In this document: positions 3,774-14,167 of the stretch, piece by piece | How the letters are laid out: each line of letters begins with the position of its first letter | Position numbering within the stretch: position 1 is the stretch's first letter | Source of the DNA: Synechococcus sp. PROS-9-1 | GTDB taxonomy: Bacteria > Cyanobacteriota > Cyanobacteriia > PCC-6307 > Cyanobiaceae | DNA: 64,000 nucleotides | Reading direction: 5' to 3' | Assembly: GCF_014279775.1 (NCBI RefSeq) | Contig: NZ_CP047961.1 | Span: 806,001 to 870,000 of the forward strand | Made by a program: the position numbers and the translations under genes | Notes under the pieces: generated by a model | What the model was told of the DNA's origin: nothing | What the model saw: the letters and a program-made list of their open reading frames with translations, nothing else | Databases searched by the model: none

Positions 3774-4144
3774 CACCAATGAAAATTCTGGTCTTAACCC
3801 GCTGAGCTACCAAAGCAATTGTGGGGATTTCATCCATAGATTTGATCCCACCTCATACAACAAGGCTTAGCCATCAGCCGTCTTGAGTGACAGCAGATCT
3901 AAAGCTCGTGTGCATTTCTTGATGCTCTATATATTGCCTCCTGTCAAGAAATGTCAGATATTTCAAATTGATGAATCGACCAAAAGTGCCTTCCAGACTT
4001 GATTAAGCACACAATTTTTGCTAGCCCAATGCCCTCAGTAGAAGCTATCAGCTTCGGCGATTCACGACAGTATTGTTTTAATGAATTGATTGACTTTGAT
4101 GTTTGCCTATGCTTTAATTGAGCTAGAGAGAAAGGTGAGTAATT
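3774..4144. other. Intergenic, start of AT-rich island
   Basis: 371 bases after the helicase. It holds a tRNA-like 5' half on the - strand (3782-3817) and short frames without a ribosome binding site: 26 codons from an ATG near 3921 and 30 codons from 4030. A 94-codon - strand frame (3944-4228) was not accepted because it overlaps a better small + strand gene and has unconvincing composition. Base composition becomes visibly richer in A and T from about 3820. Confidence 0.5.
3782..3817 (-). other. tRNA-like 5'-half remnant
   Basis: Read on the - strand this stretch contains GGTAGCTCAGCGGGTTAAG, which matches the usual end of an acceptor stem plus D-arm of a tRNA. The downstream - strand sequence does not fold into an anticodon stem and no T-arm follows, so it is at most a fragment. 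Such 5'/3' pieces can be left at integration sites. A chance match is possible. Confidence 0.35.
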
Positions 4145-4264
4145 ATGCTGACAATTAATTGGGTTGGAACTGTAGTTTTGATCGCCATGATCGCAGGAAT
4201 GACATGGGTCTCTTACATAGAAACCCATCCAAAATGTCTACGTGGGATTTGCGATAAGCATTAA
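4145..4264 (+). CDS. Candidate 39-residue single-helix membrane protein
   Basis: ATG at 4145 follows AAAGGTGAG about 5 bases upstream, a credible ribosome binding site. The product starts MLTINW, has one hydrophobic segment at about residues 6-24 and a short tail with two cysteines (CLRGIC) ending at TAA 4262-4264. Size and pattern fit a small membrane protein with an N-terminal helix. It faces the cysteine-rich small gene 4285-4458 convergently, 20 bases away. No function is recognised. Confidence 0.55.
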   Translation: MLTINWVGTVVLIAMIAGMTWVSYIETHPKCLRGICDKH

Positions 4265-4284
4265 TACCTGGGTGTATTGAACGC

Positions 4285-4458
4285 TTATCTCTCCCTACTA
4301 TCTAAAGTTGTCCCAGGTTCAAGATGCTTTGTGATGCACATCGTCACGCATACTCCATCGTTAAGGCCGCAACTTGTGACGCACTCAAGATAAGCGTCAA
4401 CGGCATCCCATCGCTCGCTGATTGACTTACAGGTGTGTTCATTTTTAAATGCTCTCAT
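4285..4458 (-). CDS. Candidate 57-residue twin CX3C protein
   Basis: The start ATG (complement of 4456-4458) is preceded by GGGAGCGAAAA, a good ribosome binding site. The 57-residue product has no signal peptide. Its centre reads WDAVDAYLECVTSC, then six residues, then CVTMC: two CX3C pairs (Cys26/30 and Cys37/41) spaced by six residues, in a predicted helix-turn-helix. A further Cys is at position 10. Twin CX3C hairpins are known from small disulphide-bonded or metal-binding helical proteins, but relation to any of those is not claimed. The regular motif and start signal argue strongly for a real gene. Confidence 0.65.
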   Translation of the reverse strand: MRAFKNEHTCKSISERWDAVDAYLECVTSCGLNDGVCVTMCITKHLEPGTTLDSRER

Positions 4459-4637
4459 TTTTCGCTCCCAAGTGGGAATTGATTACGATGATTTTTATTT
4501 GCTGGCAAGTAAATTATTAAGATATGAATAGTTCCTAAGTTTATTTGCTTACTTGAAGTGAATTAAGTCCAAAAAGATAGGTCCGAAAGCTTTATATTTT
4601 CTTAAAGATTGCTGGTTATTGGCTTTTCGTTCACAGT

Positions 4638-4677
4638 AAAAAACCGCCTGTACTGTGGGGCACAAGCGGCATTTTTT
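4638..4677. terminator. Hairpin terminator, works on both strands
   Basis: CCGCCTGT (4644-4651) pairs with ACAAGCGG (4662-4669), 8 positions with one mismatch and a 10-base loop. Six A precede it and six T follow two bases after it. On the - strand the T-run follows the stem directly, so it would best end - strand transcripts such as that of the microprotein 4705-4788. Confidence 0.7.
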
Positions 4678-4704
4678 GTTGCAGTGGTTTTGAATTTGAA
4701 TTGA

Positions 4705-4788
4705 TTACTGCATAATATGTGAAAAACAAAGATGAAATAATGTGTATGTAATGATACCAATTGAGATTGCGGGAACTGTAAAGTTCAT
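4705..4788 (-). CDS. Candidate 27-residue membrane microprotein
   Basis: On the - strand AGGAG sits 5 bases before the ATG at 4788, an ideal ribosome binding site. The product (MNFTVPAISIG... ending HIMQ) is almost entirely one hydrophobic helix. The TAA at 4705-4707 is followed about 30 bases later by the strong - strand side of the 4638-4677 terminator. An upstream in-frame ATG at 4842 would give 45 residues (MPKTQIPTIK...) but has no binding site. A + strand frame of 43 codons (4751-4882) overlaps it and is less well supported. No function is recognised. Confidence 0.5.
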   Translation of the reverse strand: MNFTVPAISIGIITYTLFHLCFSHIMQ

Positions 4789-4874
4789 TGCTACTCCTGC
4801 GGATTCCATTAACTTAATAGTAGGTATTTGCGTCTTCGGCATCAAGAACTACATAATTCTTCTAAGGAGTGATA

Positions 4875-5045
4875 ATGCCTAGTGCCTCTGTTTGGGGCGC
4901 TATTGATTTCAGCCTCATTCTTAAAGCTGATTCAGTGTTCCCAATGCTTCATGGTGAGGATTGGCTCTGTTGTGATCCAGCCTATAAGGCACATACCGGA
5001 GGCAATGAAATATCGGTATGGTCGTATGTTAGATCTCCACTTTGA
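4875..5045 (+). CDS. Candidate 56-residue small protein
   Basis: AAGGAG lies 6 bases before the ATG at 4875, the strongest start signal on the + strand of the island. The product (MPSASVWGAIDFSL...) has a hydrophobic first third and a CC pair in the middle, and ends at TGA 5043-5045. It overlaps, antisense, a 60-codon - strand frame (4982-5164); probably only one of the two is translated in full. No family is recognised. Confidence 0.4.
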   Translation: MPSASVWGAIDFSLILKADSVFPMLHGEDWLCCDPAYKAHTGGNEISVWSYVRSPL

Positions 5046-5164
5046 TCATTATTCTGGGACGATTCAATCACCTTGCTAACCACTTCTAAAGCCAAATGCA
5101 TCAGTTGTCCATTAGGGATTTCTTCATTTGTTGGGGTTTTTAGATCCACCACAAGTATCAGCAT
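4982..5164 (-). CDS. Candidate 60-residue small acidic protein (antisense overlap)
   Basis: The product begins MLILVVDLKTPTNEE, continues with an amphipathic helix (LMHLALEVVSKVIESS) and ends SLPPVCAL. The composition is protein-like and it points the same way as the 4705-4788 microprotein and its terminator. No clear ribosome binding site precedes the ATG, and the 3' third lies opposite the + strand frame 4875-5045. It is unresolved which of the two is real. Confidence 0.35.
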   Translation of the reverse strand: MLILVVDLKTPTNEEIPNGQLMHLALEVVSKVIESSQNNDQSGDLTYDHTDISLPPVCAL

Positions 5165-5526
5165 TGTGAATTATTTGAGGATTTTATGAGTTTCCTTTGA
5201 GGCGGTTTGTATCTATTAATACTCTCTTTGGTTTAGAACCTGCTGGAAAGTAGTCCTAGGAGAATAAGGCTGGTTGGTCTTTGATGTTGAACGCTTAAAG
5301 ATTTTGCTTAGTCGCTGAAGTTACTCAACGCTGACTCTTGAAGTGTTTGCTCTCAGCATTGGCTTCCCTCAAGACAGATCAGTTGTCTATTCCTGTAGCA
5401 GCGATCGGGATGGAAGGGACGAAGCTGTTTGTACCCCTGCCAGATCTTCCGTTACCCCACTGAACCGCCCCTACCCAGAGAATCTGTTGACGACGTGCCT
5501 GCTTTGGCAAATTTGTGATCGAAGGT
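5165..5526. other. Intergenic with no convincing gene
   Basis: 362 bases. AGGAG near 5265 is followed only by a 14-codon TTG frame. Longer frames on either strand (104 codons + from 5343, 77 codons - from 5612) are rich in Arg, Ser, Pro and Cys, lack start signals and overlap the more convincing small gene 5527-5703. No repeat or terminator was found. Confidence 0.4.
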
Positions 5527-5703
5527 TTAGTTCTTCGTTGGCGTGTGTGTATTCGAATGATTGTGGAGCTCGGCCGCCAATAGATCCTTGGCCAGCATCG
5601 ATAAACCCACACCCATCAGAGCAAGAGCAACGCCTCGATGGTCGTCTGCACTGTTAGATACTTTTCTGGAAAGCTCTAGGTGTTGTTTCCAAGAAAAGTG
5701 CAT
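5527..5703 (-). CDS. Candidate 58-residue small protein
   Basis: From the ATG at 5703 the frame reads MHFSWKQHLELSRKV, then a hydrophobic stretch GVALALMGVGLSMLAKDLL at about residues 24-42 and a polar His/Thr-rich tail to TAA. The alternation of an amphipathic N-terminus, a small-residue helix and a polar tail looks like a genuine protein, possibly membrane-associated. No strong ribosome binding site is seen. Frames on the opposite strand at the same place look like noise. Function unknown. Confidence 0.5.
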   Translation of the reverse strand: MHFSWKQHLELSRKVSNSADDHRGVALALMGVGLSMLAKDLLAAELHNHSNTHTPTKN

Positions 5704-5901
5704 TGAAGCCAGGCGTCACAATGCTTTTTAGACTAATTAGCGGTTTCAATCAAAGGGATAAGAGACATTAGGCAATGATCTGTAATAAGCGAAATGTAGT
5801 GAGTTGAGCATGTAATCGTCAAATCGGTTGCAATCACTACCTGATTGATTTGCGGTGTTATGCCGTACGGGTTAACTTCAGCTCGCCAAGCAAAAAGACC
5901 A

Positions 5902-6078
5902 ATGGATCCAATTGCTTTGACGATCGGGCAAATGTTCGAAGTCGAGAAGTTTTCAAGAGAGATTGATGGCTCTAAAGACGTTGAGGAGCTGCAATCAATT
6001 GCTAAAAACCTGCTGCTTGCTTGGAAGCAGCAACAAGCTGCATCAGCTTGGATCATCCGTCAGCAACAGGGACTTTGA
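5902..6078 (+). CDS. Candidate 58-residue helical protein
   Basis: Starting at ATG 5902 the product is MDPIALTIGQMFEVEKF..., followed by EIDGSKDVEELQSIAKNLL and AWKQQQAASAWIIRQQ. It is a compact two-helix, soluble protein with strongly protein-like composition. The frame stays open upstream to an ATG at 5845 (77 residues), but the N-terminal extension looks non-coding. A hairpin (6111-6129) lies 33 bases after the stop. The overlapping - strand frame (5733-6056) is judged a shadow. No function can be assigned. Confidence 0.6.
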   Translation: MDPIALTIGQMFEVEKFSREIDGSKDVEELQSIAKNLLLAWKQQQAASAWIIRQQQGL

Positions 6079-6110
6079 GTGCATCGAAACAAAACATTGA
6101 ATGGGTTGAG

Positions 6111-6129
6111 AGGAATGGTTGCCATTCCT
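6111..6129 (+). terminator. Short perfect hairpin, possible terminator
   Basis: AGGAATGG and CCATTCCT form an 8-bp stem around TTG, followed by TTCGC. The stem is perfect but the T-run is weak. It lies just after the small gene ending at 6078, so it may end that transcript. Confidence 0.4.
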
Positions 6130-6246
6130 TTCGCTTGAGATTGATAAATTTAGAGCCCTGAATGGAAGGTCCTGAGGTGCCTAATTCCTAACGATAGATT
6201 TGGTTTTCTGTTTTGGTCCTCGGCTTCCAAGTCCTATTCCTCACGC

Positions 6247-6933
6247 TCAGGTGAGGGCAAGACCACTGATTCCTTGCCAGCCGAGATAGCCCCCGATTCC
6301 AAGACTGATGGCGGCTACAACCAGCTCGCCTCGAGCAAACAGCACCTCTTTTCCGCGTTCTAATACAGGCACGACCTTTTCTCGACCAATCGCAACGGCG
6401 ATCAAAGGGGTAAGCATCAACAGGCTTGCCCCGATCGTGAAGGCCAAAAGACCAATCAGTTCTTGCCACGTAGGCAGTTGAGCCGCCAAGACAACGCTTG
6501 CTGATTTCGCAAACAGCACGAGATCATCAGGACTGGCAATTTCTGCGATCGCACCCAATAACAACAACAGAGGAAGGGGCATGTTCACAAAGCGATCCAC
6601 GCTTGCGGTCCATGCCGGTGGTCTGTCTCCCTCGGTCAACGATCGCAGCAATTCCCTACCGCCAACGGCGATTAAGGCTCCACCTGCGAGGAGATCCAAG
6701 CCCGTGCGGTGATGGGAGCCTTGCGTCATGTCCAGCACCAGTGAATGACCCACAGTCACCAATAGAGCTGAAGTCGTCATTGTGGTGACCACCCATCCCG
6801 CCACAAACCAACCTCCGCGGCGCAATGGTTGTGGTCCTAGGAGAAGCAGCAGCAACACGGCAATGTGGATCGGGGATAGGCCAATACCAGTGCCATAGGC
6901 GAGTAGCTCAGCCCAGAGCGTGGTGTCGCTCAT
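6247..6933 (-). CDS. GAP/Sap-family multi-pass membrane protein
   Basis: A 228-residue protein with six or so hydrophobic segments, the N-terminal GIGLSPIHIAVLLLLLLGP and the mid-protein IASPDDLVLFAKSASV that are typical of the GAP (Sap/SfLAP, LysE-like) family of small-molecule or lipid transport proteins. A basic loop (GPQPLRRGG) lies near residue 35. ATG at 6933. It stands alone in the island, with codon use closer to the core genome than its neighbours, and may be an older resident. The substrate is unknown. Confidence 0.75.
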   Translation of the reverse strand: MSDTTLWAELLAYGTGIGLSPIHIAVLLLLLLGPQPLRRGGWFVAGWVVTTMTTSALLVTVGHSLVLDMTQGSHHRTGLDLLAGGALIAVGGRELLRSLTEGDRPPAWTASVDRFVNMPLPLLLLLGAIAEIASPDDLVLFAKSASVVLAAQLPTWQELIGLLAFTIGASLLMLTPLIAVAIGREKVVPVLERGKEVLFARGELVVAAISLGIGGYLGWQGISGLALT

Positions 6934-7001
6934 TGTTAAGTCGAAACACTAAACGCCAGATTGATCGTATTAGGGCTTGGGCTCAAGCAACCGCTTAAAA
7001 G

Positions 7002-7047
7002 AAGAGCTGGCCCAGTGGTTAGCTGTTCAAATCCCATACCGGCACAG
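7002..7047 (+). other. tRNA-like deletion remnant
   Basis: GAGCTGGCCCAGTGGTTAG resembles a D-arm and is followed immediately by TGTTCAAATCCC, which resembles a T-arm and loop, then an acceptor-like GGCAC. The anticodon arm is absent. It looks like a tRNA with its middle deleted, but a chance match cannot be excluded. Confidence 0.3.
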
Positions 7048-7109
7048 GATCTGAGCTCAGATGTCACTTCAACACGCTGAACATTTAGACAACATCTTTG
7101 AACAACAGC

Positions 7110-7133
7110 AGATCAATAAGTAGATCAATAAGC
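7110..7133 (+). repeat. 12-base tandem duplication
   Basis: AGATCAATAAG occurs twice in direct succession, at 7110-7120 and 7122-7132, as two 12-base units that differ only in the last base (T or C). No function is evident. Confidence 0.7.
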
Positions 7134-7284
7134 AGAGCTGAGGGAATGGGGCTGATGGTGTAGAAAACCCAGTCCTCTTCTCTTAACGAGTCAGAATTTT
7201 AAAGACTCAGTGAGGGATGAGAATATGCGCTTTTCACCTACTCATATCTAATGATTAAAGCCTAATGGATTATCGAATGTATCC

Positions 7285-7306
7285 AAGAGAGGTTATTACT
7301 TCTCTT
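7285..7306. terminator. Hairpin at the 3' end of the 7308-7805 gene
   Basis: AAGAGAGGT and ACTTCTCTT form a 9-bp stem (one G-T wobble) around TATT, directly after the stop of the - strand gene. No T-run follows on the - strand, so termination would be weak; it may protect the 3' end. Confidence 0.35.
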
Positions 7307-7307
7307 C

Positions 7308-7805
7308 TTATACTGAATAGAAAACTGACTGAACGATAATCTTAAAATTGTTCAACTGGTCGATAATTGTTTTGATGCCGGCTTCGTCATCGTCAGTAAG
7401 CAAAGGATACTGGCGATGAAAAGATATAGTGAATGATCCATCTGTGCTAATAAGCTTAGTTCTTTCGTGATAGATGAACGAAGAGCATAAGCGCTTTGTT
7501 GCCAGTTGAGCCATAGCCTCTTGCTCCTTTTTAAATACCCTGTCAATCTGGAAGTGGATGTACTTGTCTTTTTCTGCATTCGCTTGTGAATTGAATTCGC
7601 CTTCGTCTGATTTTCTAAAATCAGCTTCTTCAGAATTGCTTTTTCCCACTTCGTCAATCCCCTCAATTGTCCAACTCATTCCATCAAGGTGAACATTTAC
7701 TTTTGCCCACTCTGGTTCCTTCATCCAGATATCTAAGCTGCACTTATATCCCTCTTTCTTTAGTCCTTCGTAAATGTTTCGGCTTGTCAGTTCAAGAGTT
7801 ACCAA
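7308..7805 (-). CDS. Hypothetical 165-residue protein
   Basis: Not recognised. A soluble, Lys/Glu-rich protein beginning MVTLELTSRNIYEGLKKEGY; a middle charged stretch (about residues 48-80) is followed by a helix (KKEQEAMAQLA) and a C-terminal part ending QSVFYSV. No signal peptide or membrane segment. The start is doubtful: the first usable codon is TTG at 7805, there is no ribosome binding site, and the frame stays open only seven codons further up, to a TGA with no ATG. The gene may be 5'-truncated. It is AT-rich like the rest of the island, consistent with acquisition from elsewhere. Confidence 0.6.
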   Translation of the reverse strand: MVTLELTSRNIYEGLKKEGYKCSLDIWMKEPEWAKVNVHLDGMSWTIEGIDEVGKSNSEEADFRKSDEGEFNSQANAEKDKYIHFQIDRVFKKEQEAMAQLATKRLCSSFIYHERTKLISTDGSFTISFHRQYPLLTDDDEAGIKTIIDQLNNFKIIVQSVFYSV

Positions 7806-8195
7806 TAGGTCACAGAATTTATGTCAATGCAACCCTAACCGGGTTGCAGGAGAACCGGATTTGTGTTTGTTCCAACACCTATTTCTTGCTTGGATCGAAT
7901 CAGTCATAGGCCTAATTGATTGATGTGGATGCACTGAAGCAACTCATTGTCGTCGAGCGCGCAATCTGTATGATTTGTTACTAACTAGTCGGTAGCCACG
8001 CTAACGCTCCATCAGCGATGAGATGGAAAAGAACCATTAGCTGTTTTCACTGCTCGTTTTTGACATGAGAATCATTCATGTCTAGCTCGCATTTAGCGGT
8101 AGATTCGTCATTGAATAAAAGCGAGGGTCTTCTACGACGAAACTTTATGGAAATAAATATGAGAAAACCGTTTAAAACCCAATCAACAGTGCCTA
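7806..8195. other. Intergenic with small hairpin and no accepted gene
   Basis: 390 bases. GCAACCC/GGGTTGC (7829-7847) is a 7-bp hairpin just upstream of the - strand gene 7308-7805. AGGAG at 7848 is followed by a 19-codon GTG frame at a spacing of about 10 bases. A 23-codon frame (MRKPFKTQ...) starts near 8159. None is convincing alone. The region is strongly AT-rich towards 8200. Confidence 0.4.
7829..7847 (-). promoter_or_regulatory. Hairpin in the 5' leader of the 7308-7805 gene
   Basis: A 7-bp perfect stem GCAACCC/GGGTTGC with a 5-base loop, 24 bases before the TTG start. It could mark the end of an upstream transcript or influence translation. No T-run is present. Confidence 0.3.
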
Positions 8196-8306
8196 TTAGA
8201 CTATTACTTCGGAAAAAACATACCCAATGATGACGACAAAGGACAGATAGGCTAGGAATAGAATGGTAAACATAGAGTCTATAAATGGTCTCGACTTTTT
8301 AATCAT
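8196..8306 (-). CDS. Candidate 36-residue single-helix membrane protein
   Basis: From the ATG at 8306: MIKKSRPFIDSMF..., then an unbroken hydrophobic helix (TILFLAYLSFVVIIGYVF) and SEVIV before TAA. The basic N-terminus plus one helix predicts a membrane peptide with its N-terminus inside. The start signal is weak. The - strand terminator at 8514-8551 lies upstream, so this gene would need its own promoter in the 200 bases between. No function is recognised. Confidence 0.55.
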   Translation of the reverse strand: MIKKSRPFIDSMFTILFLAYLSFVVIIGYVFSEVIV

Positions 8307-8393
8307 ACATGCAGTCTCTATTTGCGAGGTATGGAAAAATACAATTATAATGGCTCGGTTTTCGAATACAATGTATTAATAAGTACATGTAAA

Positions 8394-8516
8394 ATGGTTT
8401 TGCTGCCAACTTCAAGGCGACTTCTTCCCTTGCTCTTAAAGGTGATTGAACAGAAGAAGGGTGAGCAGGAGTGCCGAAGTAATGGGTCAAGTCTGACCAC
8501 GGCTAATCTGCTTTAA
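8394..8516 (+). CDS. Candidate 40-residue small protein (weak)
   Basis: ATG 8394 opens MVLLPTSRRLLPLLLKVIEQKK..., an amphipathic basic helix followed by a Ser/Thr-rich tail to TAA 8514-8516. The frame continues upstream to ATG 8331 or 8322 (64 residues) with less protein-like sequence. No ribosome binding site. It ends exactly at the A-run of the next hairpin. Real coding status is uncertain. Confidence 0.3.
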   Translation: MVLLPTSRRLLPLLLKVIEQKKGEQECRSNGSSLTTANLL

Positions 8517-8551
8517 ACAAAAAAGTGGGAAGTGTGCTCATGCTTCCCACT
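8514..8551 (-). terminator. Rho-independent terminator, - strand
   Basis: AGTGGGAAG (8524-8532) pairs perfectly with CTTCCCACT (8543-8551). Read on the - strand the stem is followed at once by a run of six T, then GTTT. It ends a - strand transcript that begins above 8551, downstream of a second terminator at 8731-8757. Confidence 0.8.
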
Positions 8552-8632
8552 GGAACTTGCTCTCGCTCAATCATTTTGGGTGCATGAATTTAGAAGACTT
8601 GTTTTGATCAATACCAGCGACAGTCGTGACGC

Positions 8633-8707
8633 TTACTTGATGCCTCTGAGGCCTGATTGCCACTCCCGTTTTCCCGTCTTAGGCCTTTGTTGACTATTTG
8701 TATGCAT
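8633..8707 (-). CDS. Candidate 24-residue basic peptide (weak)
   Basis: Between two - strand terminators the frame from ATG 8707 reads MHTNSQQRPKTGKREWQSG..., a short strongly basic peptide ending GIK. There is no clear ribosome binding site, and a second 30-codon GTG frame overlaps it. The segment may instead be a small non-coding RNA. Reported because the two terminators imply a separate short transcript. Confidence 0.25.
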   Translation of the reverse strand: MHTNSQQRPKTGKREWQSGLRGIK

Positions 8708-8730
8708 TGATACGAACGCTGCTTGAGCAC

Positions 8731-8757
8731 AAAAAAACGAGGCCACAACAGCCTCGT
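8731..8757 (-). terminator. Rho-independent terminator, - strand
   Basis: ACGAGGC (8737-8743) and GCCTCGT (8751-8757) form a 7-bp stem with a 7-base loop. On the - strand it is followed by seven T. It is the natural end of the transcript carrying the phosphatase gene at 8960-9553. Confidence 0.8.
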
Positions 8758-8959
8758 TATATAAAACCTCTTCCCAAAGGATTTACCTGGACGAACCTTA
8801 ACTCGAATATTGCTTATTGTAAAGCCCTTCTCTTTTGTCCTTCCAAGGGTGCTGCAGCGGTTAAGCGTTCAGTGGCAGGCCATCCATCGATTGGCCCTGA
8901 GCACATGCACTCCTGATGGGTAACGGATGGAGGAATGGGGATGACGGGGATGTGACCGC

Positions 8960-9553
8960 TTAAAACAAGCTGTTGGTGGGCGCATTCCAGCGCGCGATTA
9001 TGCGCTGGCCTCGCTCGAAGCCCAGGATGCAGATCGTTCCTGTGCCGAGCTGGAAGTAGCGACCAGCTGTTGCACCGAGTCCCAACCAGGTCCCTGTCAA
9101 GGCGCGCAGCAGGTGCCCATGGGCAAAGAGGGCAACATCTCCCTCGCCCGGTGCCGCTAAGGCGATTTCAATGGTTTGTTCGCAGCGTTGTTGCACGGCT
9201 TGCGCATCTTCTCCATTCGGGCAGCCATGGCTCCAAACGGTCCAGTTCGGAATGCTCTTACGAATCTCGGGGGTTGTGATTCCTTCGTAATCCCCGTAAT
9301 CCCACTCGCGCAAGGTTTCCATGATGCGTCGTTGTTGGCCAAGGCCTCCCAGCTCACACGTGCGTTTTGCTCGTTGCAGTGGTGAACTGAAAACGGCTGC
9401 AAACCGATGGGATGCGAGTGCAGGCGCAAGCTGTTGTGCCTCTTCTTCGCCCTCAGGCAACAAAGGTAAATCGGTGTTGCCTGTGTGCCGTCCGTTTATG
9501 GCCCATTCAGTGGCTCCGTGTCGAAGCAACCAGAGCTGACGTTCGTTGCCCAT
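8960..9553 (-). CDS. Histidine phosphatase family protein (phosphoglycerate-mutase-like)
   Basis: A 197-residue member of the histidine phosphatase superfamily. The catalytic LLRHGATEW is near the N-terminus, SSPLQRAKRTC near residue 60, EWDYGDYEG near residue 84 and FAHGHLLRAL near residue 145. This pattern fits small broad phosphatases rather than true glycolytic mutases. ATG 9553 is preferred over an in-frame GTG at 9565; neither has a clear binding site. It is the last gene of the - strand block that includes acyP, cobB, opcA and zwf, and a terminator lies at 8731-8757. The substrate cannot be told from sequence. Confidence 0.88.
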   Translation of the reverse strand: MGNERQLWLLRHGATEWAINGRHTGNTDLPLLPEGEEEAQQLAPALASHRFAAVFSSPLQRAKRTCELGGLGQQRRIMETLREWDYGDYEGITTPEIRKSIPNWTVWSHGCPNGEDAQAVQQRCEQTIEIALAAPGEGDVALFAHGHLLRALTGTWLGLGATAGRYFQLGTGTICILGFERGQRIIARWNAPTNSLF

Positions 9554-9586
9554 GATTTGGATCACTACGTTGTTGTCTTGTCCCTC

Positions 9587-9943
9587 TTAACTGCGAACGT
9601 CAAACCAGTCATGTCCAGTGACGGGCATTTTTGAGAACAGCACCCTTGTCACGCCTGCTGTGCTTGGGCCGCGCTCACACCACAGACGCATGGCATTCAA
9701 GGCTATTTCGCCTCCCTCCGCCTGAACCTCCACTCTCCCGTCTTTGAGGTTGCGAACCCAGCCGCTAAGACCAAGATCGACGGCGCGTTGTCGGCAACTC
9801 TGTCTGAATCCCACCCCTTGCACGTTGCCTTCGATGAGAAAGCGCCAGCGTTCTTTTAATGGCTGCTGTTGCTGACGCGTGGTCTTTATGAATCCGTCGC
9901 GATCTGTGTCGCCAGAGTTTCGAGAGCGGCGCGCCATCGGCAT
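9587..9943 (-). CDS. acyP: Acylphosphatase
   Basis: Small enzyme that hydrolyses acyl phosphates. The core begins around RWRFLIEGNVQGVGFRQ, where GNVQGVGFR is the phosphate-binding loop with the catalytic Arg, and continues GLSGWVRNLKDGRVEV with the catalytic Asn. The domain ends at MPVTGHDWFDVRS. No start codon lies just before the core. The nearest are ATGs at 9943 and 9937, which overlap the 3' end of cobB by about 55 bases and add about 28 non-conserved residues, so the true start is uncertain. An unusual start inside the cobB overlap is possible. Confidence 0.88.
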   Translation of the reverse strand: MPMARRSRNSGDTDRDGFIKTTRQQQQPLKERWRFLIEGNVQGVGFRQSCRQRAVDLGLSGWVRNLKDGRVEVQAEGGEIALNAMRLWCERGPSTAGVTRVLFSKMPVTGHDWFDVRS

Positions 9944-11274
9944 GAGATCGTCGAAGAGCTGGCCCAGTGAAGATGCACCCAGCTTGCGTGAACGGTCGGA
10001 AGTGCCCATCCTTCTTCTCTGCGATCAACATGCCAGCCATCAACCTGCCACAGCGGTTGCCATCTGCCCACAGGTTCCTCACTGAGCTGCCAGCGGTGAA
10101 ATTCATGGCCCATCCACTGATCACCCGCCTTCAGCAGCAAGCTGTCGCGGGTTGCCGTTAGGCGGCGATACCCCACCTGTAACCTCCCGCGTTGGGCGTG
10201 GAACGGTAAAACCCCCGCCATTGCATGGGTTTGTCCCTCCCCGTCCATCAAACTGGTTCCCAGCATCAACATGCCGCCGCATTCGGCGTACAGCGGTTTG
10301 CGTTGCACCCAGTCGCGGAGGCTTAAAAGGCTTTGTTGGCAACGGCTGAGTTGTTCGGCATGCAGTTCTGGGAACCCTCCAGGGATCACGAGTCCATAGG
10401 CCGCTTGCGGCAACGGCTCATCCTCTAAGGGGTGCCAAGGGATCACCGGCATCCCCAATGCCTCGAGGCAATCCTGCATCTCGGGATAACGGAAATGAAA
10501 GGCGTTGTCTTGGGCGACGGCCACTGGCAGTGGTTCTCGCTGGGTGTCCTGTGCCAAAGCCTCCGCTAGCACGGTTTGAATCGGCTCTGGACCCGGAGTT
10601 GGCGCTGCCATCAACCTCTCAAAGACCCCCATCTCAAGATGTTGATCAGCGATCGCTGCCCATTGCCCCAGACGAACATTCAGTTGATCGAGTTCATGGG
10701 CTGGAGCTAGGCCCAAATGCCGACTGGGTAGTTCGAGGCTTGAATCCCGCGGGAGACATCCCAGGCAGGGCACCTCAATGGCCGCCAAGACATCTTCGAG
10801 AAGCAAGCGATGGCGCTCAGTGCTGACTCGATTGAGCACCACACCAGCAAACTTCACGTCGGGGTCAAGATCACGAAATCCGCTCACAAGGGCGGCGAGT
10901 GATCGCGCCTGTCCGCCAGCATCCACCACCAACACCACCGGCAAATGCAGGTGTTTGGCTACGGCTGCGCTGCTGCCTTCGCCCGTTGAGCCGATCCCAT
11001 CGAACAGGCCCATCACCCCCTCCACGAGGGCTAAGTCGCAGCGACCTCCATAGCCATGGAAACTGGTTTTCACCCAGTCGGGTCCGCATAAGGGCAGGTC
11101 GAGGTTGCGGCAAGGGCGCCCTGCACTGGCCCCAAGCATTTGGGGGTCGAGATAATCAGGCCCCACCTTGAAGGGTTGAATGCTCAATCCCTTCTGTTGC
11201 GCCCAGGCGATCAGGCTGAGGCTGAGCAGGGTTTTGCCGCTGCTGCTCGATGGAGCAGCGATCACACAGGCCAT
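9886..11274 (-). CDS. cobB: Cobyrinic acid a,c-diamide synthase
   Basis: Amidates the a and c carboxyls of cobyrinic acid with glutamine and ATP during cobalamin synthesis (CobB/CbiA). The 462-residue protein has an N-terminal P-loop domain with SSSSGKT near residue 9, GPDYLDP near residue 39 and EGVMGLFDG near residue 85. A C-terminal class I glutamine amidotransferase domain carries the nucleophile in YAECGGMLMLG near residue 330 and HEFHRW near residue 395. The ATG start is 16 bases downstream of the opcA stop, so it is probably cotranscribed. Marine Synechococcus make pseudocobalamin, which fits. Confidence 0.93.
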   Translation of the reverse strand: MACVIAAPSSSSGKTLLSLSLIAWAQQKGLSIQPFKVGPDYLDPQMLGASAGRPCRNLDLPLCGPDWVKTSFHGYGGRCDLALVEGVMGLFDGIGSTGEGSSAAVAKHLHLPVVLVVDAGGQARSLAALVSGFRDLDPDVKFAGVVLNRVSTERHRLLLEDVLAAIEVPCLGCLPRDSSLELPSRHLGLAPAHELDQLNVRLGQWAAIADQHLEMGVFERLMAAPTPGPEPIQTVLAEALAQDTQREPLPVAVAQDNAFHFRYPEMQDCLEALGMPVIPWHPLEDEPLPQAAYGLVIPGGFPELHAEQLSRCQQSLLSLRDWVQRKPLYAECGGMLMLGTSLMDGEGQTHAMAGVLPFHAQRGRLQVGYRRLTATRDSLLLKAGDQWMGHEFHRWQLSEEPVGRWQPLWQVDGWHVDRREEGWALPTVHASWVHLHWASSSTISCRWRAALETLATQIATDS

Positions 11275-11290
11275 GCTGCTCAGCTGGGAA

Positions 11291-12586
11291 TTAAGTCAGA
11301 AGCTTGGCAGCCAGAGGGGCAGCCGCAGCCAAGAGTGGGTTTGAGGAATCGTGCCCACCCTCGAGGAGGCGAGCCATGTCGGCTTCCACGTGTGTATGGA
11401 GCAAGGGCACCACTTCTTCCACGAGTTCCATGCTGGCCATGCCCCCAGCTTCAAGGCGCATGCAACCACCAGATTCCGCGCAGAGGATCACACACATCGC
11501 CCCGCCATGCTCGGGTTTGGAAATCATCCGTAGCCCCACGATTTGTCCTGGATGAATACTGGGTTGCCCCATGGGTACGGGAGACACCCGCAGCGGCACC
11601 TCGGTTCCATCAGGACGTTGGAACATTGCGCTGATGCTGGAATCGCCGGTTTTGGCATCATGCCCATGGGTCTCTTTGAGAGTCCAGCCCAGTCGATCGG
11701 CAATCCAAGAGGCCAACAGGAGGCCTTGGACCGGGTGATCTCCCTCGACATCGATGTCGAGTTGCACCACATGGCTCAGGGCATCGCGACGGTGCGGAGG
11801 ATCAAACACCATCGCCAGCGTTTGATGCCAGCTGCCCAGCCTTAGCCAGTTGAGATCATTCACGGCCTGGCCGCTTGCGAGCCTGGTGGCGAGAAGGTTC
11901 AGGCAGTAAGAGGGATTCCCAAGAGCAGAATCCAAAATGAGCCTGCGAGGAGCGATCGAGAGCTTCTCCAATAACTCAGGCGATTCATCGAGGGGCCCGT
12001 TCCACCACACCCAAGAGGGCAGGTCGTCGGGGAGTAGGGGCTGCAATGTGTTGAGTCCTTCCTGCAAGGCCTCTGTTCCGCCGCGGAGCACCACCACATC
12101 TCCGCAGGCAACAGTGCCCCCCCCCTCTTCCGGTAAGGGGCAATAGGCGGCCACCAAGGTTTCCAAGGGGCGGCTGGAATCCAAGCTTGGTGCCAGGGTG
12201 ATCAAGCGCCGTGGTCTGAGCGTGCTTAAGGCCTCATCAACATGTTGACCACGAAGGTCGTCACTGGTTTTGCTGCCATCAACTTTGGCCAGACTGTTTG
12301 ACACCGAGCTCCCAAGGGGCGGGGTGCTGAGGGGGAGATCAAGCTCGAGGACTGCTTTCCGCCCAGCCTCTTCCACCTCGTCGCGTTGCACGCCCATGAT
12401 TGGGCCTTCGATTCTGCCCGTGCGCACCAGCTGCTGTTCCACCCAGGCTGGCTGCCAGATCAACAGACAGAAGGTGTGGGCCCCAATGCTGTTGGCTTGA
12501 TCGCGGGACCACAACTGATTGAGGTAATTGGGAACTTCCGATGGAGGGAGCTCGAGGGGAGTTTGAAGCGTGAGCTGAGGGGACAT
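11291..12586 (-). CDS. opcA: OpcA, glucose-6-phosphate dehydrogenase assembly/activator protein
   Basis: A 431-residue protein matching OpcA, the redox-linked allosteric partner that activates Zwf in cyanobacteria. The conserved core includes LRPRRLITLAPS near residue 130, DVVVLRGG near residue 165, PSWVWWNGPL near residue 192 and the LNWLRLGSWHQ block near residue 245. Several cysteines (for example in GGAMCVILCAESGGCMR near residue 365) could be thioredoxin targets, as known for OpcA, though which ones is not decided here. It follows zwf on the same strand by 57 bases, the usual cyanobacterial order. Confidence 0.93.
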   Translation of the reverse strand: MSPQLTLQTPLELPPSEVPNYLNQLWSRDQANSIGAHTFCLLIWQPAWVEQQLVRTGRIEGPIMGVQRDEVEEAGRKAVLELDLPLSTPPLGSSVSNSLAKVDGSKTSDDLRGQHVDEALSTLRPRRLITLAPSLDSSRPLETLVAAYCPLPEEGGGTVACGDVVVLRGGTEALQEGLNTLQPLLPDDLPSWVWWNGPLDESPELLEKLSIAPRRLILDSALGNPSYCLNLLATRLASGQAVNDLNWLRLGSWHQTLAMVFDPPHRRDALSHVVQLDIDVEGDHPVQGLLLASWIADRLGWTLKETHGHDAKTGDSSISAMFQRPDGTEVPLRVSPVPMGQPSIHPGQIVGLRMISKPEHGGAMCVILCAESGGCMRLEAGGMASMELVEEVVPLLHTHVEADMARLLEGGHDSSNPLLAAAAPLAAKLLT

Positions 12587-12643
12587 GCTGCGGCCTGAGG
12601 AAGGGCGGTATCGAGGTGAGCTTGGATGAGGTTCTGGCTGCTT

Positions 12644-14167
12644 TTAGGGGCGACGCCAGAGCAGGCCGTCTCGTGCCAGCAGGGCATCTGCAGCGGCAGG
12701 TCCCCAGGTGCGTGACTCATAGGGGTGGATGGGCAGCTTCCAGGGGCTGTCTTCGATGAGTTCCAACAAAGGGGTGTAGAGCCTCCAAGCTGCCTCGACC
12801 TCATCGCTACGCGTGAACAGCGTTGGATCGCTCAGCATTGCGTCCGCCAGCAGGCGCACATAGCCCTCGTCTGATGGTTCGCCAAAGGATTCGTCGTAAG
12901 AGAATTCCATCTCAACAGGGCGGCTGCGCATGCCGGAGCCTGGAGACTTCACTTCAAATTTGAACTCAGCACCCTCATCGGGCTGAATGCGCAGGATGAG
13001 CTGGTTGGCGGTTGGACTACCACCAGCAGCATCGAAGAGGTGAACGGGTGCTTCACGGAAGGTCAGCACCACTTCGCTCAAACGCTTGGCGAGGCGCTTG
13101 CCAGTGCGCACATAGAAAGGCACGCCCTGCCAGCGCCAGTTATCGATGAACAGCTTCATCGCCACGTACGTTTCCGTGGTGCTGTGTGGGTCGACGCCTG
13201 GTTCTTGCCTGTAGCCGCTGAGAGGTGCGCCATCGCTTCCTCCGGGCCCGTATTGACCGCGGATGCAGCAGTTCCAGGGTTCAAGTTCATCGGCCAGGCG
13301 TGCCGCTTGAAGCACCTTGGCCTTTTCACTGCGGATGGCCTCTGGATCAAAACGTCCAGGGGTTTCCATGGCTGTGATCGCCAACATTTGGGTTAGGTGG
13401 TTTTGCACCATGTCGCGCAGGGCGCCCGAGGTTTCGTAGTAACCGGCCCGTTCTTCCACTCCAACGGTTTCAGAGGCCGTGATCTGAACGCTGGAGATGT
13501 AGTTCCGATTCCAGATTGGCTCGAAAATCGCGTTGGCGAACCGCATCACCATGATGTTTTGGACCGTTTCCTTTCCGAGGTAGTGGTCGATGCGAAAGAT
13601 CTGGTTCTCTTGGCCGCAGCCTTGAACCACCCTGTTCAGGGATTGGGCGCTGCCGTAGTCCCGTCCGAATGGTTTTTCAATCACAACGCGACTGCGTTGG
13701 GGATCCTTCAGCAGGCCTGCATCAGCCAGGGCTCGGCAGCCACCCGCATAAAACTTCGGCGACACCGACAAGTAAAAGGTGCGGTTGCTTCGTGTGGCTC
13801 TTTGACGGTCGATCTCCTGAAGTCGACCCCCGAGCTTCACGACGTCTTCAGGTTTCTGAAGGTCCACCGGTTCGTAAAACATTCCGGCGGCAAATTGCTC
13901 CCACGCTTCGGGATGGTCGCGAACCTTGTCACCCATCGCCTCCGCCATTTTGCTGCGGAATTCTTCGTCGCTCCAAGGTCTTCTGGCGCAGCCCAGGAGG
14001 GCAAATTCGCTAGGAAGACGTCGTTGCTGAAACAACTCGAAGAGGGCTGGTACCAGCTTGCGATGGGTGAGGTCGCCGCTCGCCCCAAAAATCACCAGGC
14101 ACTGTGGAGCGATGACCCGTTCCTGTCGCAGCCCAACCCTGAGTGGGTTCGTGATCGTTGCGGTCAT
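12644..14167 (-). CDS. zwf: Glucose-6-phosphate 1-dehydrogenase
   Basis: First enzyme of the oxidative pentose phosphate pathway, producing NADPH in the dark. The 507-residue protein has the nucleotide-binding IFGASGDLTHRK near residue 27, the catalytic RIDHYLGKE near residue 195 and the conserved VRTGKRLAKR near residue 355. Length is typical. It heads the zwf-opcA-cobB block; petH lies upstream, separated by a terminator. Start ATG at 14167. Dark- and clock-dependent expression is known for the family but no site is visible here. Confidence 0.97.
   Translation of the reverse strand: MTATITNPLRVGLRQERVIAPQCLVIFGASGDLTHRKLVPALFELFQQRRLPSEFALLGCARRPWSDEEFRSKMAEAMGDKVRDHPEAWEQFAAGMFYEPVDLQKPEDVVKLGGRLQEIDRQRATRSNRTFYLSVSPKFYAGGCRALADAGLLKDPQRSRVVIEKPFGRDYGSAQSLNRVVQGCGQENQIFRIDHYLGKETVQNIMVMRFANAIFEPIWNRNYISSVQITASETVGVEERAGYYETSGALRDMVQNHLTQMLAITAMETPGRFDPEAIRSEKAKVLQAARLADELEPWNCCIRGQYGPGGSDGAPLSGYRQEPGVDPHSTTETYVAMKLFIDNWRWQGVPFYVRTGKRLAKRLSEVVLTFREAPVHLFDAAGGSPTANQLILRIQPDEGAEFKFEVKSPGSGMRSRPVEMEFSYDESFGEPSDEGYVRLLADAMLSDPTLFTRSDEVEAAWRLYTPLLELIEDSPWKLPIHPYESRTWGPAAADALLARDGLLWRRP

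Follow-up and report, generated by a model that had tools for sequence, protein, structure and literature searches.

Phycobilisomes form a large store of nitrogen, up to half of soluble protein (cited in PMC9602691), and their dismantling in marine Synechococcus is poorly known. The closest described systems are NblA (PF04485), the adaptor through which cyanobacteria degrade their phycobilisomes, the small protein NblD, and the divergent nblA-like genes of picocyanobacteria (PMC7439483, PMC9602691). A gene of phage S-SCSM1 was grouped with picocyanobacterial nblA genes (PMC9602691), and one related picocyanobacterium is said to be without nblA, phycobilisome breakdown perhaps being absent there or under other genes (PMC6337551). 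Here we analyse a 64,000-nt window (G000:C1:806001-870000) from the single contig of 2,273,940 bases of Synechococcus sp. PROS-9-1 and, within it, the stretch 3774-8959, which carries a divergent NblA-like gene among other small genes. With a probability of roughly one half, we read this stretch as a clade-specific cluster of microproteins for NblA-type antenna turnover, combining a small module of NblA type with further microproteins.

The NblA-like gene and its divergent neighbour

The features on which this reading turns are the following (start and stop counts refer to homologs; aa, amino acids):

5902-6078, + strand: divergent NblA-superfamily gene, 58 aa (5902+), product a predicted helical hairpin; dN/dS 0.05; start and stop retained in 8 of 8
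5527-5703, - strand: 58-aa protein, MHFSW..HLELSR.. (5703-); dN/dS 0.19; start and stop retained in 8 of 8
5704-5901, no strand: conserved intergenic DNA between the divergent 5703- and 5902+
5827-5840, within 5704-5901: conserved core GTTGCAATCACTAC, a candidate NtcA-type GT-N10-AC site
4285-4458, - strand: twin-CX3C protein (CX3C-X6-CX3C), 57 aa (4458-); dN/dS 0.13; start retained in 8 of 8

The ratios of non-synonymous to synonymous substitution rates (dN/dS) given throughout were pooled over comparisons of the window with eight homologous loci, comparisons that have common ancestry.

By profile comparison, the 5902+ product is a distant homolog of the NblA superfamily. In hhalign, a widened profile of 67 sequences (the 5902+ family, its paralogs and cyanophage members) aligned co-linearly over 60 columns with a profile of 50 canonical NblA sequences (P 2.3e-7, probability 93.5, score 36.5). 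With the profile reversed P was 0.22, and with four other families of the island it was 0.14-0.58; among 50 column shuffles the highest score was 18.5, compared with 36.5 for the real alignment. Cross-searches with single-family profiles agreed: the NblA profile recovered 64 of the 67 sequences from picocyanobacteria and phages at E<=1 (best 2.9e-7, for a set of this small size); reciprocally, the picocyanobacterial profile matched 32 of the 50 NblA loci. All 23 aligned members of the 5902+ family matched phrog_27081 (best E 2.2e-8, window protein 1e-6), which places 5902+ in the picocyanobacterial/cyanophage NblA-like group. The predicted model is a helical hairpin with helices at 8-23 (broken at 12) and 27-55 and a predicted local distance difference test (pLDDT) score of 88; since a two-helix hairpin is a common shape, it argues only weakly for the superfamily.

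Among 106 genomes of the class from outside the window's taxonomic family, 87 have canonical NblA; among 10 from inside it, the window genome included, none has. Of 151 genomes of the taxonomic family, 106 have a match to the NblA-like profile, and the window genome has up to four below 1e-6; NblA-like genes of a diversified family are thus widespread in picocyanobacteria.

Members of the 5703- family are present in 27 of the 151 taxonomic-family genomes. When all 33 of its matches were compared with 34 NblA-like matches, 28 were divergent from an NblA-like gene at a distance of 168-201 nt; among the remaining ones two were adjacent on the same strand and three were non-adjacent. In the DNA shared by the divergent pair the core GTTG[CT]AA..ACTAC is retained in 18 of 18 aligned loci. 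It fits the relaxed NtcA site, GT-N10-AC; because patterns of this length are common and it has no conserved -10 element beside it, we treat the site as a candidate. A conserved RNA structure in 5704-5901 was considered and dropped, with no base pair altered on both sides and no covariation.

Homologs of 5902+ were also seen in the cyanophages S-SCSM1, S-TIM5, S-TIM54, PSS2, S-CRM01, Bellamy and S-SM2, the S-SCSM1 gene matched by both profile and tblastn carrying an nblA annotation; most of the 75 phage records matched were Escherichia coli phages at E ~4 and were treated as chance. These homologs, the phrog_27081 matches of all 23 members and the host origin or exchange proposed in the accessible part of PMC9602691 would suit an NblA-like gene derived from, or exchanged with, cyanophages, the cluster then being part of a phage-host contest. 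We regard this as highly improbable: the tree places phage members far from the island copy, searches for phage relatives of the CX3C protein (E 0.1) and of 5703- (E 1) found none, and the stretch has neither an integrase among its scanned proteins nor a tRNA (the sole tRNA of the window lies at 16.4 kb).

The twin-CX3C family and its linkage to NblA-like genes

The 4458- frame, correctly taken for a gene in an initial annotation made from the sequence alone, encodes a protein whose C-terminal end drifts (stop position identical in two of eight homologs, earlier in one) while CX3C-X6-CX3C is invariant across 38 aligned family members. Its model is a predicted helical hairpin (pLDDT 76.7), for which the fold search gave no match below E 1.6. 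Members of this protein family are carried by 144 of the 151 taxonomic-family genomes (95 of 95 of the better ones) and by all 150 genomes of an order sample made up of the same taxonomic family alone; 106 genomes from elsewhere in the class had none. An ancestral-type member, YFECITTCSLDDGECITRCVE, for which Pfam and NCBIfam have no model, lies at G000:C1:1965459-1965593 and also in L189, L043 and other loci, and is nearly invariant across the sampled taxonomic family. Matches to phrog_665, a phage family of unknown function, were seen for 26 of the 38 members at E<=1 (best 1.8e-5). We rejected an identity with PSHCP, the hyper-conserved picocyanobacterial protein, which is without such cysteines in the accessible part of PMC4215834, as well as matches of the CX3C profile to CagY, which were sums of many insignificant repeats.

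Among the matches listed, a CX3C gene and an NblA-like gene lie within 500 nt of each other in 44 of the 66 genomes having both, where ~0.07 would be expected. All 44 pairs have the same strand, with the CX3C gene upstream and 94-270 nt between the genes. The count used 106 NblA-like and 150 CX3C matches, weaker NblA-like matches being excluded. An ABC-F-type gene stands upstream in the five such loci inspected. Four of the five (L090, L093, L095, L096) have, downstream and on the opposite strand, a gene for a trypsin-like (Deg/HtrA-type) protease; for L090 and L095 the identification was made by eye, and the L093 protein has PDZ domains (Pfam). Our literature searches, covering listings and partial texts, returned no report of this linkage. 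By genome position, an unnamed, near-universal twin-CX3C family is here tied to NblA-like genes.

Several observations weigh against assigning the stretch to antenna turnover of the NblA type. None of the 23 aligned 5902+ members matches PF04485 at E<=10, and we therefore do not class 5902+ as a canonical NblA; its product has no match in Pfam or NCBIfam. The direct tblastn signal to S-SCSM1 is weak (E 0.02). The solved NblA structure 1ojh was met at E 0.82, ranked under unrelated chains, and Foldseek and VIA-align returned many helical hairpins for the model, with encapsulated-ferritin chains at the top of the Foldseek results and NblA absent among the matches listed; fold comparison does not discriminate here. 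A tight CX3C/NblA-like pair is missing from 22 of the 66 genomes, among the matches listed. The window's CX3C gene lies 1.4 kb from 5902+, on the opposite strand and with other genes between; the two are 1.3-1.7 kb apart on opposite strands throughout the window clade, so the operon was not retained there. In G015 the 5703/5902-type pair is on a separate contig from the CX3C and 27-aa genes, indicating that parts of the island are separable. Support for an NblA-type module comes from sequence and gene position. Finally, the 5902+ family occurs also in genomes of ~1.7 Mb, probably (to judge by size) of Prochlorococcus, which has no phycobilisomes; not every member could then act on phycobilisomes.

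The last point, along with the up to four NblA-like matches in the window genome, would suit a family of NblA descent that still serves as a Clp adaptor for a substrate other than the phycobilisome. So would the tree, in which a long branch leads to canonical NblA (support 98/94, from few columns and with many unresolved forks), and the hhalign alignment, in which similarity, judged by eye, is lowest over the second half of the hairpin, where NblA contacts the antenna (PMC7760959, accessible text). We consider such a change of substrate unlikely for 5902+: the genus of the window has phycobilisomes, and genes of this kind are treated as nblA-like in the available parts of PMC7439483 and PMC9602691, although these parts hold no test of a picocyanobacterial protein.

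Coding status, homology, gene linkage, the conserved regulatory DNA and one terminator are shown; for a cluster acting in NblA-type antenna turnover we infer the biochemical steps as follows. The 5902+ product would be a helical-hairpin adaptor, most likely an NblA-like dimer tying phycobiliproteins to the ClpC/ClpP protease, and would start antenna breakdown or remodelling upon a change of nutrients or light. The 5703- protein, whose gene shares a regulatory region with 5902+, probably acts jointly with it. The twin-CX3C protein 4458- probably serves the adaptor as a gate or helper, by way of the redox state of its cysteines or by binding metal. Two hydrophobic peptides of the stretch, of 27 aa (4788-) and of 32-39 aa (4145+), may anchor the machinery at the membrane.

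A clade-specific insertion and its other genes

The remaining features of the stretch are:

6247-6933, - strand: mid-sized SfLAP membrane gene (PF11139, E 1.1e-49); dN/dS 0.10, used as a control
7308-7805, - strand: 165-aa gene of unknown family (7805-), between SfLAP and the phosphatase gene; dN/dS 0.06, 3 homologs
4145-4264, + strand: predicted membrane microprotein, 39-codon frame (4145+); first 32 codons (to ~4240) common to two homologs
4705-4788, - strand: hydrophobic microprotein of 27 aa, MNFTVPAISIGIITYTLFHLCFSHIMQ (4788-); dN/dS 0.16; start, stop and frame retained in 8 of 8 homologs
4643-4670, - strand: intrinsic terminator belonging to 4788-, with a stem of 11 pairs and a T run
4982-5164, - strand: 55-60-aa protein ending PPVCAL (5164-); dN/dS 0.29; 8 homologs without stops or frameshifts

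The initial annotation described an AT-rich island between two conserved core blocks, and in this it was right. The guanine-cytosine (GC) fraction is 0.440 in 3774-8959 against 0.556 in the remaining window (0.422 to each side of SfLAP); the left neighbour of the stretch is a helicase gene (PF13604 and UvrD_C_2), the right one a gene of the histidine-phosphatase superfamily. That a single mid-sized gene was present is contradicted by the 165-aa gene, a second one.

Helicase and SfLAP genes are adjacent in 7 of 12 named loci, with the phosphatase gene directly next in six of those seven; the insertion is present in four of the 12 (L066, L067, L068, L077). The stretch is therefore a clade-specific insertion and the SfLAP gene predates it. 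Island blocks adjoin SfLAP in 9 of 31 genomes of the genus sample (in G015 only partially). A second insertion, with the 165-aa gene 3' of SfLAP, was seen in G000, G024, G027 and G014 (four of the nine island genomes). In L073, a Synechococcus metagenome-assembled genome, ~5 kb of different DNA (8671-13748) occupies the helicase/SfLAP junction. Repeats flanking the stretch were short and imperfect, and we do not call it a mobile genomic island. No known RNA was recognised: of the two Rfam matches, to a threonine leader (E 1.7) and to a fluoride riboswitch (E 2.8), neither reached the threshold.

Coding status is supported for 4145+, 4458-, 4788-, 5164-, 5703-, 5902+ and 7805- by purifying selection, with overlapping spurious frames as controls. 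Most other overlapping frames have dN/dS of 0.54-7. Low values were also obtained for 4277+ (0.23), 5561+ (0.19) and 5733- (0.35); these were rejected as genes, as they run antisense to real genes or lie upstream of and across them, with stops in 8 of 8 homologs for 5561+ and 5733- and the 4277+ start retained in only two of eight.

The first 32 codons of 4145+, proposed earlier as a membrane peptide, are sustained by a dN/dS of 0.21; both of its island homologs end after codon 32, and the remaining codons are not. Five further places were found by tblastn, with strong matches in 3 of 151 genomes of the taxonomic family. In L038, L039 and L041 (second loci, of G021, G006 and G015) 4145-type and CX3C genes are adjacent and convergent, as in the window. 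Of the frames for which a near-ideal ribosome-binding site had been claimed, 4788- fared best: AGGAG is present in 9 of 9 genomes. Its terminator forms a hairpin of -11.6 to -20.9 kcal/mol in all nine despite altered sequence, the U run being weak in G007 and L066. For 5164- the likely start is a GTG near 5149-5152, as the ATG at 5164 is not common to homologs; all eight homologs have an in-frame ATG or GTG around that position. Both 4788- (counting strong matches) and 5164- were found only in the window clade, each in 4 of 151 genomes, and 4145+, 4788- and 5164- are thus nearly restricted to this clade. The 165-aa gene has only a sub-threshold Pfam match, to MinC_N_1; two diverged copies of it were seen in G015 (L046, L047).

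Other candidates fell away. The 4875+ frame, also credited with a near-ideal ribosome-binding site, has dN/dS 0.71, in-frame stops in five of seven homologs and an ATG retained in five of nine genomes and lost in four; it overlaps the conserved 5164- frame in antisense. The 4742+ frame (4742-4882) has dN/dS 1.00 and overlaps the 4788- gene. DNA homologous to 8306-, listed before as a peptide at 8196, is absent from eight loci, and 8078+ has no tblastn match. Nor is the stretch packed with small frames, as had been asserted: 57 open reading frames of 24-60 codons were observed against 70.9 (standard deviation, sd, 6.8) in order-1 random sequence. Terminator-like sites numbered 6 against 4.8 expected (sd 2.3) and promoter-like sites 4 against 9.1 (sd 3.5); these counts are within or below chance expectation, and a surplus of any of the three was dismissed.

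Membrane peptides do not dominate, only 4145+ being clearly hydrophobic (Kyte-Doolittle 1.92 over 19 residues), with 4788- borderline at 1.59. Of the suggested cluster of small membrane and cysteine-rich proteins there remain small conserved proteins, one of them cysteine-rich; between-strain comparison by tblastn and dN/dS, the check that had been proposed, upheld 4145+, 4458- and 4788- and failed 4875+, 4742+ and 8306-. Standard annotation would indeed probably leave these genes blank or 'hypothetical', as the small families have no Pfam or NCBIfam model. Missing from the initial annotation were 5902+, 5703- and 5164-, the first two being the most informative genes of the stretch. Its idea of a stress-response island has become more specific, as a divergent NblA-superfamily gene and a linked cysteine-rich family, while functional unity is something we infer. 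Ribosome-binding sites and frame counts by themselves mislead, as 4875+ illustrates; comparison between strains identifies real microproteins.

One could also suppose that a variable insertion site has gathered unrelated microproteins without functional unity. We take this possibility seriously without favouring it. Different DNA occupies the site in L073, and the seven named loci above have no insert on the helicase side; the right-hand insert occurs in four of nine island genomes, parts are separable in G015, the flanks of the 5703/5902 pair vary among genomes (10 loci inspected), and 4145+, 4788- and 5164- are nearly clade-specific. Yet the CX3C/NblA-like linkage elsewhere, with the fixed divergent pair, shows that at least three families belong together.

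Comparison with known systems

Concrete candidate genes for the dismantling of phycobilisomes in marine Synechococcus can now be named, and they are directly testable. More broadly, and more doubtfully, picocyanobacteria, being without canonical NblA, may carry out antenna turnover by a diversified NblA-like family with a twin-CX3C redox or metal switch, the window clade having possibly assembled an extra, separately regulated copy with membrane peptides.

Small Tim chaperones and plant alpha-hairpinins are twin-CX3C helical hairpins; 4458- resembles them in its two CX3C motifs and predicted two-helix hairpin, but has a 6-residue loop between the motifs, no significant fold match and a different biology. 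Closer in biology is NblD/NsiR6, likewise small, cyanobacterial, with two cysteine pairs and tied to NblA-type turnover (PMC5126843, PMC7760959). NblD, however, has 66 aa and a first pair CPVC, i.e. CX2C (PMC5126843), against CX3C-X6-CX3C in all 38 aligned 4458- members, and for this first pair we do not class 4458- as NblD; moreover, NblD homologs are reported phylum-wide, while the 4458- family was found only inside its taxonomic family. The 4458- protein may still work like NblD. These comparisons, and the last one below, draw on the accessible parts of the papers.

With NblA the 5902+ product shares its length, a co-linear full-length profile match, a predicted helix-turn-helix and the N-terminal pattern PI.L[ST]..Q.F; it differs in falling under Pfam detection and in a strongly diverged second helix; binding of the antenna or of ClpC by 5902+ is putative. 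Nearest of all are the nblA-like genes of picocyanobacteria and cyanomyoviruses (S-SCSM1, S-TIM5; PMC9602691, PMC7439483), which belong to the same profile family as 5902+; the island copy differs from them by its fixed divergent 5703- neighbour and by its clustering with the CX3C protein.

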